Assembly (NCBI GenBank): GCA_019637915.1
Contig: JAHBUV010000001.1
Span: 1,334,565-1,398,564, forward strand
Origin: Pseudobdellovibrionaceae bacterium
GTDB lineage: Bacteria; Bdellovibrionota; Bdellovibrionia; Bdellovibrionales; Bdellovibrionaceae
Reading direction: 5' to 3'
Length of the DNA stretch: 64,000 nucleotides
Part shown: piece by piece, positions 43,625 to 51,386 of the stretch
Numbering within the stretch: position 1 is the stretch's first letter
Layout of the letters: the number at the start of each line of letters is the position of its first letter
Made by a program: the position numbers and the translations under genes
The notes under the pieces: generated by a model
Told to the model about the DNA's origin: nothing
Seen by the model: the letters and a program-made list of their open reading frames with translations, nothing else
Databases searched by the model: none

Positions 43625-44554
43625 CTAGAAAAGATTTTTCCTGCCGTTCATCGCGCGGTAGGACTTCTCGATCCACGCGCGATAGGCCTGGACGTTGGTG
43701 TAGACGCCGAACATGCGGCAGGTGCTCTCTTTGCTCTTTTGCGAGACGAAAGAAGCCACCCCCACCTGGTAAGTGCCGCCATTGCCGCGAACAAAGGCGG
43801 GACCGCCGGAATCGCCGTTGCAAATGCCCTGGCCATCCATTTGATTCAACCAAAGGCGGCGCTGATTGCCGCCGCCCGAGGCTTGACCGGCGTCATCGGA
43901 CAAAGTGGGATTCCAGCGCAGGGCCTCCGTGAGGGCCGGTCCCGCCAGGGGTTTCAGCACCACCGCGCGCAGGGCGATCGGGGTGGAATCGACTTCCTTC
44001 CCGCCCACCGTGCGGCCGTAGCCGACGGTCAAAACCCGATTGAACTCGGTCCAACGGAAAGGCTGGGACATCAGCCTCACCGCTTCAAACTCGCCCGGCG
44101 CCGGAAGAGAGAGGCGCACGAGGGCCAAATCATCCCCCGGGGCCGCTTGGCTGTCGCGATAACCCGGATGGATCATGATCCGATCCGCGATGGACACTTT
44201 CGAAATCAGGGTGCCCTTCTCGTCATCGCACTCGGGCTGGGCGCTGAACACCACGGCGAGTTCATTGGATGACTTCGAATTGATGACGCAATGGGCGGCG
44301 GTGAGAACGAACTGGCGGTCAATCAGGGATCCCGTGCAAACATTGCCGCTTTTTTCCACCAGGAAAACGGTGCGACGCGCGATCCAGGAGCTTTCCTCGA
44401 CCGCCTCCCCGCCGATGATGCCGCTGCCGAATTGCGCGTCGTAAAAACGACCGCCCACGCATTTTGAATCACGGCCGGATTTTCCCTCTCCGCCCTGACA
44501 GGCGGACAGCACGGCCACGAACGACAGCAGTAAACCCAAAGAGATCTTCTTCAT
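43625..44554 (-). CDS. S1 (chymotrypsin-fold) serine protease lipoprotein 1
   Basis: The 309-residue protein has a lipobox LSAC (Cys19), activation-like IIGG, and triad His88 (TAAHC), Asp142 (DDLALVRL) and Ser249 (GDSGGP). The cysteine pair flanking the His is present. The residue at the trypsin-189 position is Gly rather than Asp (GICNGDSGG), so Arg/Lys specificity is unlikely. It is the last of five leftward genes encoding exported proteins. The frame is open upstream; ATG 44554 places the signal correctly. Confidence 0.88.
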   Translation of the reverse strand: MKKISLGLLLSFVAVLSACQGGEGKSGRDSKCVGGRFYDAQFGSGIIGGEAVEESSWIARRTVFLVEKSGNVCTGSLIDRQFVLTAAHCVINSKSSNELAVVFSAQPECDDEKGTLISKVSIADRIMIHPGYRDSQAAPGDDLALVRLSLPAPGEFEAVRLMSQPFRWTEFNRVLTVGYGRTVGGKEVDSTPIALRAVVLKPLAGPALTEALRWNPTLSDDAGQASGGGNQRRLWLNQMDGQGICNGDSGGPAFVRGNGGTYQVGVASFVSQKSKESTCRMFGVYTNVQAYRAWIEKSYRAMNGRKNLF

Positions 44555-44565
44555 CTCCCCACTCC

Positions 44566-45519
44566 TTAAAAATCCGGGAACAACCGGGTCTGCGCCGGGC
44601 CCGCCAGTTCGGAAAAGTTTTTTTGCAACCATTGACGATGAAACAAAACGTTCGTGTAGGCGCTGACCAGCAGGCAATCCCGGCGCTCGGGATCATCCAT
44701 GGTGAAGGCGGCCACGCCGACCTGGTAGGGGCGCCCGTTGATTTCGAGGAAGGCCGGTCCGCCGGAGTCGCCGATGCAGGCGCCACGGCCCTCGCTTTGA
44801 TTCATCCACAGGTAGGCGGGATTCAAGAACTCATTCAACTGCACGGCGTAGATCATGCGCAGCTGCGCCTCGCTGTAGCGGCTGCGCGGCAGCCGCAATT
44901 TCACCAGTCGCTCTTTGACTTTCTCGAGCTCCTCCCCGCGCAAAGCGGGGACCTGAACGGCGCGCAGGTCGTTCTGCGCCGCCATCCCCTCGCCGCGCCC
45001 GTAACCCGCCAGCAGGTAATGCCGGAAACGGGACCACTCCAGGGGGAATTGCACCAGCGTGGACACCTCGAACCCGGACGGCGCCGGACGATCCAGCTTC
45101 AACAGCGCCAGATCCGGCGTTTCCCCGCCGTCGTCTTCTTTTTGCGGCTGACGGATGTCCGTGACGGCGGCCATCTTGCCGCGCCAATCGCCCCGTTCGG
45201 AATCGCGGTCAAAGTCCGTCGTGAAAAACACGCGGACTTGTCCCGGGGTTTTTCCACTCACGCAGTGGGCCGCGCTCAGCACGATGTCCCGCGCCACCAG
45301 GGTGCCGCTGCATTTGGTGGTTTTTCGCGAGTCCTCGCCGGTCCGGATCATCAGCAGCACGCTGCGCTTGGCGATCCAGGAGGTTTCCGCGACTTTTTCG
45401 CCGCCGACGATGCCGCTGGCGAGCGGCCCTCGCGCCGCCGTTCCGCCGCCGGAATTCCCCGTGCAGGCGACCAGGGCCAGGGCGGGAAAAAAGACGAGCC
45501 ACGACGTCCGGCGCATCAT
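44566..45519 (-). CDS. S1 serine protease lipoprotein 2
   Basis: The 317-residue protein has a lipobox LVAC (Cys19), IVGG, and triad His85 (SAAHC), Asp136 (DLALLKL) and Ser252 (GDSGGP), again with Gly at the trypsin-189 position (GACIGDSGG). A loop of about 50 residues before the Ser (ELEKVKERLVKLRLPRSRYS) is helical and longer than usual. It overlaps the third protease gene by four bases and precedes the first by 11. The three proteases are clearly paralogous but well diverged. Confidence 0.88.
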   Translation of the reverse strand: MMRRTSWLVFFPALALVACTGNSGGGTAARGPLASGIVGGEKVAETSWIAKRSVLLMIRTGEDSRKTTKCSGTLVARDIVLSAAHCVSGKTPGQVRVFFTTDFDRDSERGDWRGKMAAVTDIRQPQKEDDGGETPDLALLKLDRPAPSGFEVSTLVQFPLEWSRFRHYLLAGYGRGEGMAAQNDLRAVQVPALRGEELEKVKERLVKLRLPRSRYSEAQLRMIYAVQLNEFLNPAYLWMNQSEGRGACIGDSGGPAFLEINGRPYQVGVAAFTMDDPERRDCLLVSAYTNVLFHRQWLQKNFSELAGPAQTRLFPDF

Positions 45520-46487
45520 GGGGCCCCCTCGCCCGACGGCGGCGGGAAGGGCAGATCACGGATGTCCCCGCCCAGCTCCACGAAGGTGTCGCTGATCCAG
45601 GATTTATAGAGGAAAACATTCGTGTAGGCGCCGAGCAGATCGCAGGATCCGTCCTTTTCGCTCCCGTCGTTCATCACGAAAGAAGCGACGCCGATCTGGC
45701 GAAGGGCGCCGTCCGGCTCCTTCATGAAGGCGGGTCCTCCGGAATCACCGAAGCACATGCCCCGGCCGTGCATTTGCTCGAGCCAGATCAAGGGGGAAGA
45801 ATCATACGGGTTGATTTTCATTTCGATCTCGGCCGCGGTCCGCAGGTTCCGCCACGCATCGCTTTCCCGCAAAGAACGTCCGAGGCGGATCTTGGCCTGG
45901 CGCAAGTCCTCGCCCAGGAGCGGCCGCAAGTCCGCCGTCCTCAAACGGGTGGGAGGCTTGGTCTTCGCCTTGCCGCTCTTTTCCATCATCGTGCTGCCAT
46001 AGCCGGCGACCATGATTTCCGCGAGCTCCGTCCACGCCACGCCCTGACGCGGAAATTTCACCGGCCGCATGTCGGCGGGGGCATCTTTCTCGAGCTTGAG
46101 GAGGGCCAGGTCGTTGGTGCTTTCCAGGGCATCGTACTCGGGATGCTGGACCTTGACGGCGATCTTCACCAGGCGCGCTTTGTCCTGAAAGCCGCGGGCC
46201 GCGTCCAGCGCGAACACCGCGGTCATCTCGTCCGACACGCAATGGGCGGCGGTGAGGGCGATCCGGCGGCTCAGCAAAGTGGCCGTGCAGATCGACCGGG
46301 AATCCTTGTTTTTATTGTAGAGCAGGAAGGTTCCGGCCGCGACAGGCGATTTCGCCTTCACCTCGGTGCCACCGACGATGCCGGCCGCGACGTCGGCCCG
46401 GGAATTCGTCCCCGACGGGCCGCCCGCCCCGCAGGCCGTGAGCAGGACCGCCAACGCCAGGGAGGAAAAGAGAGGCCGGCATTTCAT
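45516..46487 (-). CDS. S1 serine protease lipoprotein 3
   Basis: The 323-residue protein has a lipobox LTAC (Cys19) with start at ATG 46487, the second of two adjacent ATGs and the one better spaced from AAGGA. Motifs are IVGG, His82 (TAAHC), Asp126 (NDLALLKL) and Ser249 (GDSGGP). The trypsin-189 position is Gly (GMCFGDSGG). A helical insertion (EDLRQAKIRLGRSLRESDAW) precedes the Ser as in protease 2. It is probably outer-membrane-anchored, facing the periplasm or the surface. Confidence 0.88.
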   Translation of the reverse strand: MKCRPLFSSLALAVLLTACGAGGPSGTNSRADVAAGIVGGTEVKAKSPVAAGTFLLYNKNKDSRSICTATLLSRRIALTAAHCVSDEMTAVFALDAARGFQDKARLVKIAVKVQHPEYDALESTNDLALLKLEKDAPADMRPVKFPRQGVAWTELAEIMVAGYGSTMMEKSGKAKTKPPTRLRTADLRPLLGEDLRQAKIRLGRSLRESDAWRNLRTAAEIEMKINPYDSSPLIWLEQMHGRGMCFGDSGGPAFMKEPDGALRQIGVASFVMNDGSEKDGSCDLLGAYTNVFLYKSWISDTFVELGGDIRDLPFPPPSGEGAP

Positions 46488-46506
46488 CATGTCCTTCCCC
46501 TTTCCT

Positions 46507-47187
46507 TCACGGTGTCTCATTGAAGTTCGTGCGGGCCCGCACCAGGGCGGTTGCTTTCAACAAAGAGCGGCTCGGGGCGCTCAGGCCGGAACCGCGTTCG
46601 GCCATTTTGCTCAAGGCCTCCACGCTCACCGCGTAGGATCCGCGGTCCTGAAGGCGGCGGTCGCAGCTTTTCTGATTTTGAAACAGGCCGCGACGGCAGA
46701 CGACATGGCCGTAACCTTCGAAGTGCCGGGCCTCATGCAGCAGGAATTCCGCGCGCGTCGCCACCGACAGCCAGGAATCAAAAAATCCCGGGCACAGGTA
46801 CACCGTGGTGGAATCAAAATCCGGCGAGACGTAGGCCAGGGTAGAACCGCGGCACTCCGTCACCATGCGATCCACCGCGAAGACGCGCTTCACGCGTTTG
46901 CTGAAGTAGCCCCAGAAGTCCTCTTTCAGGATGCCTTGGTCAAAAGAACTGCGGGCGGGGGTTTTTTCGAGGCGCAGGTTTTTCAGGAAAATCAGCGTCT
47001 GCACGATCCGGTGGGACGCGGAGCCTTCCCGGCAGCGGTCGAAACGGTCTGAATCCGCCGATTCCACTTTGATCGACGACAGGACGCTCTTCACCGCCGC
47101 GGCCTCCAGGCAATTCGCCGCGCCGGCGGCTCCCGCCACGCGGACGAAACCCAGGCTGAAAAGAAAGATCAAAAACACCCTCTTCAT
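46507..47187 (-). CDS. Secreted putative metzincin-motif metallopeptidase
   Basis: The 226-residue protein has a signal peptide (MKRVFLIFLFSLGFVRVAGA). Its zinc motif HEARHFEGYGH (residues 151-161) fits HExxHxxGxxH exactly: His151, Glu152, His155, His161. Several cysteines (26, 52, 112, 132 and the later CRRG) could make disulfides. Outside the motif I recognise no named family, so peptidase activity is an inference from the active-site pattern. It overlaps the upstream gene by four bases and lies in one operon with three serine proteases. Confidence 0.65.
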   Translation of the reverse strand: MKRVFLIFLFSLGFVRVAGAAGAANCLEAAAVKSVLSSIKVESADSDRFDRCREGSASHRIVQTLIFLKNLRLEKTPARSSFDQGILKEDFWGYFSKRVKRVFAVDRMVTECRGSTLAYVSPDFDSTTVYLCPGFFDSWLSVATRAEFLLHEARHFEGYGHVVCRRGLFQNQKSCDRRLQDRGSYAVSVEALSKMAERGSGLSAPSRSLLKATALVRARTNFNETP

Positions 47188-47648
47188 TGACCGGCCGCCG
47201 ATCCGTTCGCCAGCGGGCTGCCCTGGGTGGACAGGACCGAAGCGGCCATCAGCCTCAAGGCCGCCTCGAATTCCCGTTGCGCCTCATCGCGCGAGTGCGG
47301 CGACACCGGCACATGGAACAAGGGATGATCGGCCGAAGCGATTTCCTGCAGCAGATCCCCGAAATCCGCCGGCCGGCGCCCCAGCAGATAAACCGCCAAG
47401 GTTCGTTCGTTCTGGGCCCGCACGTCGTCCAGGGCCATCTCGCGCAGGGCCGCGGCCCCGGCCCGGTTCAAGCCGCCGGCCATCCGCTCCCAATGCGCCT
47501 CATCGGCTTCGGGCGACGCCACCAGCTCGTCCAGGCGACGGGCTTCCAGGTTCAGGGTGCTCTCAAACGGCGCCACCTCATCCTTTTGGATGATCACCAC
47601 CATCGAGAGAATCAGTAAAAAAAGAGCGGCCAACGGCGCGATTTTCAT
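47184..47648 (-). CDS. Membrane-anchored hypothetical protein heading the protease operon
   Basis: The 154-residue protein has one N-terminal hydrophobic helix (IAPLAALFLLILSMVVII) acting as signal anchor. A helical Glu/Ala/Arg-rich periplasmic part follows, resembling HEAT- or TPR-like helices without clear repeats. ATG 47648 is chosen because it starts the anchor; an in-frame TTG is 12 bases upstream. It is the first gene of the secreted-protease operon. No family is recognised. Confidence 0.6.
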   Translation of the reverse strand: MKIAPLAALFLLILSMVVIIQKDEVAPFESTLNLEARRLDELVASPEADEAHWERMAGGLNRAGAAALREMALDDVRAQNERTLAVYLLGRRPADFGDLLQEIASADHPLFHVPVSPHSRDEAQREFEAALRLMAASVLSTQGSPLANGSAAGQ

Positions 47649-47802: not shown

Positions 47803-48630
47803 CTAAGTCAGCACCCCGGAAATCCTCCGCACGATCTCCGGCGCGATGACCTCATTCCCCGCCACCAGGCTCGTGCTGTAGGGATCGTGCGCTCCGCCCG
47901 AATAAGTCATGACCACGCCGCCGGCCTCTTCCACCAGCAACTGCCCCGCCGCCACATCCCAGGGCTTGAGATTCTTCTCCCAGAAGCCGTCGAAGACCCC
48001 GCGGGCCACCTGGCACAGATCATAAGCGGCGGCGCCGGCGCGACGAACGCCGCGCACCTCGCCGACCAGCCGGGCGAAGAGATCGATTTGTTCCTTCAGC
48101 GCCGTCTTGTCGTCGGGAAAAAATCCCGTCGCCAGCAGGCTGTCCGGAAACCGCGCCGTCCCGCTCACGCGCAAAGGTTTGCCGTTCACGAAAGCGCCCT
48201 CGCCGCGGATGGCGGTGTAGGTCTCGCCCAGCATCGGAACGTCGATCACCGCGACCTTCAGGTCGCCGGCGACCTCCAGGGCCAGGCTGATGCAAAAAAC
48301 CGGAAAACGATGGATGTAATTCGTCGTGCCGTCCAAGGGGTCCAGGATCCACCGCCCCTGGGGCCCGGCGCGGCCCGGCCGGACCTTCGTCCCGGCATGG
48401 GTGGATTCCTCACCCAGGACCTCGCTGTGGGGATAGGCCTTTTTCAAAACCGAAATGATCACTTCCTCGGAATGGCGGTCGGCCTCGCTGACCAGGCCCG
48501 CCTGGAATTTACTCTCCACGTGCTCCAGGCGGCCGAAATGCCCCAAGAGGACCTCCCGCCCTTGACGGCATGCCCGCAAAGCCGTACCCAGTGCACCTCT
48601 CCAATCGTCCGGAAACGCCGAATTTTCCAC
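47803..48630 (-). CDS. Inositol monophosphatase family protein (SuhB-like)
   Basis: The 275-residue cytoplasmic protein has the metal-binding motifs of the family: GEESTH, WILDPLDGTTNYIHRFP and the late WDVAAGQLLVEEAGG. It dephosphorylates inositol-1-phosphate or related sugar phosphates; in some bacteria the relative SuhB also takes part in rRNA antitermination. The frame is open 120 bases upstream, but GGAGGT stands at the right distance from GTG 48630 and gives the normal family length. Confidence 0.9.
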   Translation of the reverse strand: MENSAFPDDWRGALGTALRACRQGREVLLGHFGRLEHVESKFQAGLVSEADRHSEEVIISVLKKAYPHSEVLGEESTHAGTKVRPGRAGPQGRWILDPLDGTTNYIHRFPVFCISLALEVAGDLKVAVIDVPMLGETYTAIRGEGAFVNGKPLRVSGTARFPDSLLATGFFPDDKTALKEQIDLFARLVGEVRGVRRAGAAAYDLCQVARGVFDGFWEKNLKPWDVAAGQLLVEEAGGVVMTYSGGAHDPYSTSLVAGNEVIAPEIVRRISGVLT

Positions 48631-48750
48631 GAATATTGACCTCCTGGCGGGCGGAACAGTAACATGAATTGAGGGTCGAAGGAATGGCCCGAGGCAAAAG
48701 CTTTCCCCGACGCGCCAAACAAACGCCGGGGCTTTCAGAAGGAAACGCAC

Positions 48751-49566: not shown

Positions 49567-50099
49567 AAGCGGAAGCCCGATCGCAGCACCACATCGGGCT
49601 GCACGGTCGGATCCATCTGGGACCCGAAAAACAAACGACCCTCCAGCGACAGCCGGAGGGTTTTTTTCATCTCGAAAGCCAGGCCCGCGGACACGGCGCC
49701 CACGAAGGCGTCGCCGCCGTTGTCGTTGATCGTCTCCTGGTCGCCGAAGCGGGTCGCGAAATCCTCGCGCGACATCCCCAACCCCGCCGCCCCGCTCAGG
49801 ATCCAGGCCGGGCTCAAAGGGAATTCCCGGCGTCCCCACAGCACCAGCTCCTGATGCCGGCGGGTGATCCGGCTGTAAGCGGGGCCGGACACGTTGTCGT
49901 AAGAGGAATACTCCAGCAGGCCGGCCCACTCCCCCGCCGACAAGCCCGCGGCGAAGTGCCGGGTGTTGACGGCGCTCAGGGCGTGCTCTTCATCGCGCTC
50001 GAAACGCGTCTGGTGATTGACGGGATAAATCTCGACGCCCACGGCGGCGGCCTGCAGGGACAGAAAGAAAAGACCGCAAAAAAAGAAAATGCGACTCAT
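49563..50099 (-). CDS. Small outer-membrane beta-barrel protein
   Basis: The 178-residue protein has a signal peptide (MSRIFFFCGLFFLSLQAAA). Short amphipathic strands consistent with an eight-stranded barrel follow, ending in VVLRSGFRF with a terminal Phe. It overlaps the preceding metalloprotease-like gene by four bases, so the two exported proteins are co-expressed. Function unknown. Confidence 0.65.
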   Translation of the reverse strand: MSRIFFFCGLFFLSLQAAAVGVEIYPVNHQTRFERDEEHALSAVNTRHFAAGLSAGEWAGLLEYSSYDNVSGPAYSRITRRHQELVLWGRREFPLSPAWILSGAAGLGMSREDFATRFGDQETINDNGGDAFVGAVSAGLAFEMKKTLRLSLEGRLFFGSQMDPTVQPDVVLRSGFRF

Positions 50100-51280
50100 G
50101 GAGCGCTCTCCCCGGCGGTGAGCAGCTCCACGATCAGGTCGAGGCCCGTTTCCTTCAGCTCCGCATCGGCGCGCAACCGTTTCGCGAGCTCCGGTAGGCG
50201 CTGGATCATGCGACGGGCCAGCACTTTGCGCCGGGACGGATCCTGATCCGCCTTCGCGCCGGCCGGGCTGTCCAGGAAGGCCTGTCGCACGGCGCGCGCC
50301 AGATCACTGCCCATCAGGTAGGAAAGATTGTTCAAGGCCGCACCGCTGTTCTGGCCGCCGTTTTTCCAGATCCCGTACAAGCGGCGGAAGTTGTCGCTCC
50401 GGAGGGGCTCGAGACCCTTGCGGCCGAGATCGCGCGCCGCCTTGAAGGGCGGCAGGGAGCGGCCCACGAAATCCGTCTGCCCGCTGTAGATCCAGCCCCA
50501 GACATCGGCCAGGCCCTCGTTCGCGGCCTTCAGAAAAAGCGCGCGCTGCAATTTGATGTTTCCGGAGAGCTCTTCGGATTTTTTTTCGATTTCCTTGTCC
50601 GGCACGGGCGCGCTCAACCCCGGGTCGTCGTGGGCCGTGCCCGCCATGCTCTGGGCCACCAGGCCGTCGCGCAGCAGATCGCGCAGGACGAGGTGATAAA
50701 ACAGCGCGTGGAAATGCTCGTGCGCGATCACGCCCGGGTTCAGGGACAGGGGCAGTTCCCGGCGCGTCGTCGCCACCACCAGCACCGCGTCCGAGGCGCC
50801 GTCGTAAAAAGAATTGTCCGTCCAGAGGGCCCCGTCATCCTTCAGCAGGCGCACCGACACTCCCACCGAACGCGGCCACGGCACGACCTGCCCCGCGCCC
50901 ACCTCGCGGTCCAGGGCCGACAGCTTTTCGAAGTGGGCGTAGAGGGCCCCCATCTGCTGGCTCACGAAATCGCCGGGCACGTAAACGCCGTCGTGATTGC
51001 GCAGGAACCGCGCCCGGGCCGCCTCGCCCCGCAGTCCGCCGGGCTCGAGCTTCGGCGCGAAATAAAAACGCGCGTAGGCGCCCCGCATTTCCAGGAGGTT
51101 TTCCACGCCGCTCAAAAGAATTTCCTGAAGACGCACTTCGCCCTTGTCATCCGGAAAAGGCAGGCGCATGCGGACTTCGCCGGAAACCCGGGACGTGGAG
51201 GGCTCCCGGGAGCAGGCCGTCATGAGCAGACAGCTCACGCACAGCCAGCAGAAAAAAGGCATGAAACGTCCAACGGGCAT
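50096..51280 (-). CDS. Gluzincin-like metalloprotease lipoprotein
   Basis: The 394-residue protein has a lipobox LMTAC (Cys23) and a zinc motif HEHFH (His187, Glu188, His191) in the helix VIAHEHFHALFYH. A downstream NEGLADV (Glu255) sits where gluzincins of the thermolysin kind carry the third ligand. The N-terminal 180 residues look like a beta-rich propeptide or fold extension. GGAGG precedes ATG 51280. I do not recognise the exact family; the two-part motif makes zinc-peptidase activity likely but unproven. Confidence 0.65.
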   Translation of the reverse strand: MPVGRFMPFFCWLCVSCLLMTACSREPSTSRVSGEVRMRLPFPDDKGEVRLQEILLSGVENLLEMRGAYARFYFAPKLEPGGLRGEAARARFLRNHDGVYVPGDFVSQQMGALYAHFEKLSALDREVGAGQVVPWPRSVGVSVRLLKDDGALWTDNSFYDGASDAVLVVATTRRELPLSLNPGVIAHEHFHALFYHLVLRDLLRDGLVAQSMAGTAHDDPGLSAPVPDKEIEKKSEELSGNIKLQRALFLKAANEGLADVWGWIYSGQTDFVGRSLPPFKAARDLGRKGLEPLRSDNFRRLYGIWKNGGQNSGAALNNLSYLMGSDLARAVRQAFLDSPAGAKADQDPSRRKVLARRMIQRLPELAKRLRADAELKETGLDLIVELLTAGESAP

Positions 51281-51386
51281 CGGCGGGCCTCCGGGCTGCC
51301 GTTTTGCAGTCCCCATGCCGCCTCAGGTCGAATTCCGGCGATTCTGATTGGAAAAAAGCGTCTAAAAACTTATCTATAGCCGTATT

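Follow-up and report, generated by a model that had tools for sequence, protein, structure and literature searches.

A HEL/MET gene pair co-inherited across Bdellovibrionota probably forms a module of its own beside three putative lipid-tethered S1 zymogens

Introduction

Does a closely packed run of five protease-related genes in a member of the Pseudobdellovibrionaceae encode one proteolytic system, or do its parts belong to separate modules that happen to be neighbours? The locus lies in a 64,000-nt stretch of DNA (the window) from Pseudobdellovibrionaceae bacterium GCA_019637915.1 (JAHBUV010000001.1:1,334,565-1,398,564; genome code G000). A first-pass annotation, made from the letters of the window, had read it as a single dedicated surface or periplasmic system comprising three S1-protease lipoproteins, a metzincin-motif protein and a membrane-anchored helical protein. 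Comparison of the five genes with their relatives leads us to think that the locus probably holds two separate Bdellovibrionota secretome modules side by side: the S1 trio (module A), and a pair formed by the helical protein, HEL, and the metalloprotein, MET (module B).

Results

Layout of the locus

The five genes occupy positions 43625-47648 of the minus strand, where the first-pass annotation had placed them (Table 1). The reading frames of HEL and MET share 4 bp, as do those of P0003 and P0004, and the other two gaps measure 16 and 11 bp, which bears out the tight packing described earlier. A gap of 154 bp separates the set from an inositol monophosphatase (IMPase)-family gene upstream, and downstream lie what we take to be the flagellar genes fliL to flhB, their names having been read off translations rather than taken from tool hits. 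A scan for consensus promoters returned no minus-strand match, and predicted terminators were at no excess (9 found versus 8.1 expected). Third-position GC is alike in the HEL/MET pair and the S1 genes (0.75-0.83). From this arrangement, co-transcription of the five genes is plausible. Six proteins were scanned with PADLOC, with zero matches.

Elsewhere in the window, a 406-aa lipoprotein-like protein carries HEHFH followed 62 residues on by NEGLAD, which by our own reading is gluzincin-like; it matches no Pfam family, and both motifs are kept in its orthologue from the sister species G001, which supplied the one further genome of this genus in the comparison.

Table 1. Features at and near the locus, in window coordinates, with S1 pocket residues taken from the alignment.
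Feature	Position	Strand	Description	S1 pocket
Lipoprotein-like protein	50096-51316	minus	406 aa	
IMPase-family gene	47803..48750		upstream neighbour	
HEL (P0002)	47184..47648	minus	154 aa; predicted N-terminal membrane helix and helical domain (AlphaFold2 model, alignment A4)	
MET (P0001)	46507..47187	minus	226 aa; HEARHFEGYGH; predicted secreted metalloprotein without beta-propeller (PF14521, 27.3 bits; alignment A3)	
S1 protease P0003	45516..46490	minus	LTAC at Cys20, 17 residues, then IVGG; PF00089, 89.8 bits	G189 M190 V216 G226
S1 protease P0004	44566..45519	minus	LVAC at Cys19, 17 residues, then IVGG; PF00089, 68.2 bits	G189 A190 T216 S226
S1 protease P0005	43625..44554	minus	LSAC at Cys19, 26 residues, then IIGG; PF00089, 98.6 bits (scored with a start codon further upstream)	G189 I190 V216 G226
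Flagellar genes, presumably fliL to flhB	from 43451 downwards		downstream neighbours	

Fold, specificity pocket and predicted tether of the S1 trio

Each of the S1 proteins scores above the PF00089 (Trypsin) cut-off of 20.6 bits, and alignment places the H57/D102/S195 triad and the Ile16/Asp194 activation pair in every one, together with GDSGG and I(V/I)GG, in agreement with the intact triads reported by the first-pass annotation. Its further observation, Gly at the position of trypsin Asp189, also holds for the whole trio. It had concluded that specificity is not trypsin-like unless another residue restores an acidic S1 pocket; Asp or Glu was sought at positions 189, 190, 216 and 226 and found in none of the three, and in only one of 42 other S1 sequences aligned. 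Since no acid replaces Asp189, the specificity claim stands at the level of an alignment. A non-acidic pocket narrowed by V/T216 suits small or aliphatic P1 residues, judging by the residues that line it. Gly189 is a habit of the family rather than a peculiarity of the trio, because it recurs in 32 of the 42 relatives (Ser in 7, Asp in 1), a sample that was collected with profile A1 and so leans towards relatives of the window trio.

Proteases of this fold abound in the group. S1 genes were found in 59 of 59 related genomes; there are 15 PF00089 matches in the whole G000 genome and 24 S1 matches in the related genome G036, and 24 trypsin-like S1 proteases are reported for B. bacteriovorus (PMC2605481). 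A second tandem S1 trio lies outside the window in G000 (C1:1469875-1472221; L072), its members falling in other clades than the window trio. The Bdellovibrio S1A proteases (PMC2605481, PMC5288813) resemble the trio in PF00089 fold, triad, export and the abundance of paralogues in predatory bacteria. They include BspK, which cleaves after lysine (PMC5288813), whereas the trio combines Gly189 with V/T216 in place of a basic-specific pocket, carries a lipobox ahead of the propeptide and, together with two G001 genes, forms a clade of its own.

In each of the three proteins a putative lipobox, recognised by its motif, follows a hydrophobic stretch (Table 1), as the first-pass annotation had noted. 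Its Cys lies upstream of Ile16, by the same number of residues in P0003 and P0004 and by more in P0005, and a lipobox likewise precedes Ile16 in 29 of 45 S1 proteins of a wider set, mostly 16-28 residues away. S1 enzymes require a free Ile16. As the lipid anchor would sit on the propeptide, ahead of a residue that has to be freed, the activating cut should separate enzyme from lipid. Two or more of the S1 proteins therefore look like tethered zymogens that would be freed on activation, and the earlier picture of active proteases anchored at the surface would not fit them. P0005 may differ. Its propeptide holds one Cys more (Cys32), as does its catalytic domain (ECDD); the G001 orthologue has both, and the two may form a propeptide-to-domain disulfide tether of the chymotrypsin kind. 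Position 15, immediately before the predicted cut, is Gly in 3/3 window proteins and in 22/42 others aligned. The small or aliphatic P1 residues that such a pocket would suit include Gly15 of these proteins themselves, so that self- or cross-activation is possible.

MET belongs to a family with a variable metzincin-like signature

MET does contain the perfect HExxHxxGxxH motif reported by the first-pass annotation, as HEARHFEGYGH. To place this motif we used a set of 72 family members, in which the named loci came from a scan with the pattern [LFM][MLI]HE[AV]RHx[DE]G, which biases the set to HEARH, and the remainder from whole-protein searches and from stretches fetched around matches. All 72, the window copy included, keep HExxH-x(5-11)-HxxC and a CD dipeptide. 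The spacing from HExxH to the following His is five residues in 64 of them, and the metzincin Gly is present in 58 of those 64; the spacing thus departs from that of metzincins in 8/72 and the Gly is missing in 6/64 that have it. No Met occurs within 70 residues after the motif in 33/72 members, and none is found among the invariant columns around it, so that a conserved Met-turn is not a feature of the family. Across these 72 members, the motif variation and the lack of a conserved Met-turn Met speak against a metzincin identity, and we reject that assignment. This variation makes the metzincin look of the window protein one variant of a different signature.

By sequence, the closest solved structure is an M35 aspzincin, the peptidyl-Lys metalloendopeptidase 1g12 (E 1.3e-4, the match running as far as HExxH). 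The related Pfam family PF14521 is matched at E<=0.01 by 10 of 39 MET members; the window MET scores below its 30-bit cut-off, as does L123, the first scanned. M35 aspzincins carry HExxH with an Asp as third metal ligand in GTxDxxYG. The MET family has an invariant Asp in CD (72/72), followed by GSY in most members, and lacks GTxDxxYG at the usual spacing; its invariant His (in HxxC) and Asp stand at other spacings than in M35 enzymes, and most members also differ from these in having a C-terminal propeller. If the window protein binds zinc, His161 and Asp176 are both candidate ligands.

The propeller was recognised in a model of L123, the full-length homologue closest to the window MET (from genome G030). 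The model (pLDDT 84.5) has a C-terminal beta-propeller at about residues 234-457 (VIA Z 9.8-12.1); beta-propellers fill both its Foldseek and its VIA lists, with no metallopeptidase among the matches listed. The window MET ends at the border of the catalytic domain and so lacks a part that nearly all homologues have. All other MET open frames in the homologue search have at least 455 residues, the other short strong MET (G079:C95) lying at a contig end. In the MET tree the window protein is unplaced and branches are long.

HEL is a predicted membrane-anchored helical protein

The AlphaFold2 model of HEL (mean pLDDT 88.2) has helices at residues 5-38, 46-58, 62-73, 79-90, 93-105 and 120-141, and the predicted N-terminal membrane helix followed by shorter helices agrees with the membrane-anchored helical protein of the first-pass annotation. 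HEL matches no Pfam or NCBIfam family, and a Foldseek search with the model gave no match at E<=0.001 (best E 0.59). At 154 aa it stops short, at the C-terminus, of most of its relatives, which have about 205-290 aa (162 in one case), and it keeps the PHSxxE stretch seen in alignment A4. Two conserved gene contexts repeatedly hold a HEL relative and no MET (L174, L175, L176 and L180; L177, L178 and L179), so HEL may have other partners.

HEL and MET are linked across Bdellovibrionota

Of 59 related genomes, 28 contain a MET homologue, and named records contributed another 45 loci, mostly from Bdellovibrio, Pseudobdellovibrio, other Bdellovibrionales or Bacteriovorax-type organisms. In a set of 290 Bdellovibrionota genomes, MET was detected in 72 (E<=1e-10) and HEL in 59 (E<=1e-5). 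A HEL gene lies within 2.5 kb, our definition of linkage, of 61 of the 73 strong MET loci (E<=1e-40) in these genomes, a count in which linked members are favoured because most of the sequence behind profiles A3 and A4 came from linked loci. When three pairs with a weaker MET are included, all 64 linked pairs are on the same strand, 36 in the order HEL-MET and 28 in the order MET-HEL, and the median gap is 35 bp (33 named loci). Of the 12 strong METs without a nearby HEL, some lie at contig ends; the two METs of G030, L123 among them, also belong to this group. Counted by genome, HEL is present in 53 of 54 with a strong MET, and six have HEL without a strong MET (106 MET rows less the 22 weakest, with E above 2.1e-19, against all 79 HEL rows).

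Where HEL and MET are paired, their distance matrices correlate (r=0.74; 0/2000 permutations), which shows joint inheritance rather than contact. HEL is the more diverged of the two (mean identity 0.20 versus 0.30). No HEL or MET member scanned matched a Pfam or NCBIfam family above its cut-off, and we found no description of the pair in the open-licence literature. HEL/MET is thus the conserved unit of the locus, a pair that is widespread and apparently undescribed.

Two further arrangements were seen. In G030 (L060:11090-11869 and L190:2590-4243), a canonical Asp189 trypsin gene is directly followed by HEL, about 5 kb from a lone MET. L191 (G279:C6) holds a HEL-MET-MET-HEL array followed by a gene for a 497-aa protein.

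The corresponding place in G001 lacks the pair

The corresponding place in G001 reads IMPase, S1, S1, flagellar genes, with 83 bp from IMPase to the first S1 gene and no HEL/MET between IMPase and the flagellar genes; a different HEL/MET pair is found elsewhere in that genome (L116). The S1 proteins of the two species form one clade in the S1 tree (support 99/97), P0005 grouping with its G001 orthologue (99/92) and P0004 with the other G001 S1 protein (91/78). G000 may have gained the pair, or G001 may have lost it at this place.

An S1 gene lies within about 6 kb of only one of 45 MET loci, which is no enrichment, as we estimate from the S1 density of these genomes that one to two loci would be expected by chance. 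S1 zymogens of the same layout also occur in many genomes without an adjoining MET. The five genes are therefore not a conserved set, and neither synteny nor S1 presence near MET supports the single dedicated proteolytic system of the first-pass annotation. Given their operon-like packing, the five genes may in this species have acquired a new joint role.

Discussion

We regard it as probable that two modules meet at this locus. Module A would be a genus-level cluster whose three S1 proteases are synthesised as lipid-tethered zymogens, each of them exported, lipidated on Cys19 or Cys20 and active only after a cut between Gly15 and Ile16. That cut would free P0003 and P0004 from their anchor and might leave P0005 tied through its extra disulfide. 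Module B would be HEL with an M35-like MET, two genes inherited together across Bdellovibrionota. The metalloprotein most likely works outside the inner membrane, in the periplasm or beyond the cell, usually aimed by its C-terminal beta-propeller, and HEL most likely holds or controls it there, as an inner-membrane partner that would bind it as a tether, chaperone or inhibitor. In G000, module B would stand in front of module A, with a MET that lacks the propeller. Against this reading weigh the 12 strong METs without a nearby HEL, among them the closest relative of the window MET, and the six genomes with HEL and no strong MET.

A narrower version of the HEL role, in which HEL is a self-protection protein that blocks MET in the periplasm of the predator while MET is released onto prey, is possible but rather doubtful. 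The near-constant presence of HEL in genomes with a strong MET would suit it, as would the predicted helical build with a membrane helix and the greater divergence of HEL. There is also a precedent: in PMC4686830, the ankyrin protein Bd3460 is described as blocking two endopeptidases of Bdellovibrio, and a helical protein paired with a predator hydrolase may be a functional analogue of HEL with MET. HEL differs from Bd3460 in its predicted membrane anchor and in having no detectable ankyrin match. The 12 strong METs that lack a nearby HEL and the lack of a Foldseek match for the HEL model count against self-protection, and a tether or chaperone role predicts the identical linkage and fits it equally well.

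It is unlikely, in our judgement, that the window pair is a decaying remnant in front of the S1 cluster. The long branch of P0001 and the shortening of both proteins, MET by its propeller and HEL by its last helices, mean that the pair may be decaying or re-purposed; yet both frames are open, all MET signature residues and the PHSxxE stretch of HEL are kept, and third-position GC is like that of the neighbouring genes.

Less likely still is one dedicated surface system in which MET, HEL and the S1 trio act together, for example with MET cutting before Ile16: the 4-bp overlaps, the similar third-position GC and the need of S1 zymogens for an activator, with a protease gene adjoining, would favour it, and the G001 locus, the chance-level proximity of S1 genes to MET and the many like zymogens without an adjoining MET argue against it. 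We hold equally improbable a predator's weapon-and-shield pair in which an M35-like MET, combining a metzincin-placed His with an aspzincin-like Asp, is aimed at prey by its propeller while membrane-anchored HEL guards the cell's own periplasm, the window species having split the catalytic domain from the propeller and joined it with three S1 zymogens on lipid tethers.

On the two-module reading, a loosely defined protease operon gives way to a two-gene module co-inherited across Bdellovibrionota, and of the results here it is the HEL/MET pair that merits further work. For the S1 proteins, a tethered-zymogen layout would account for the way in which a predator could keep proteases inactive on its own membrane until they are needed. 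If HEL controls MET, the pair would represent a second, structurally different way in which bacterial predators handle their own hydrolases.
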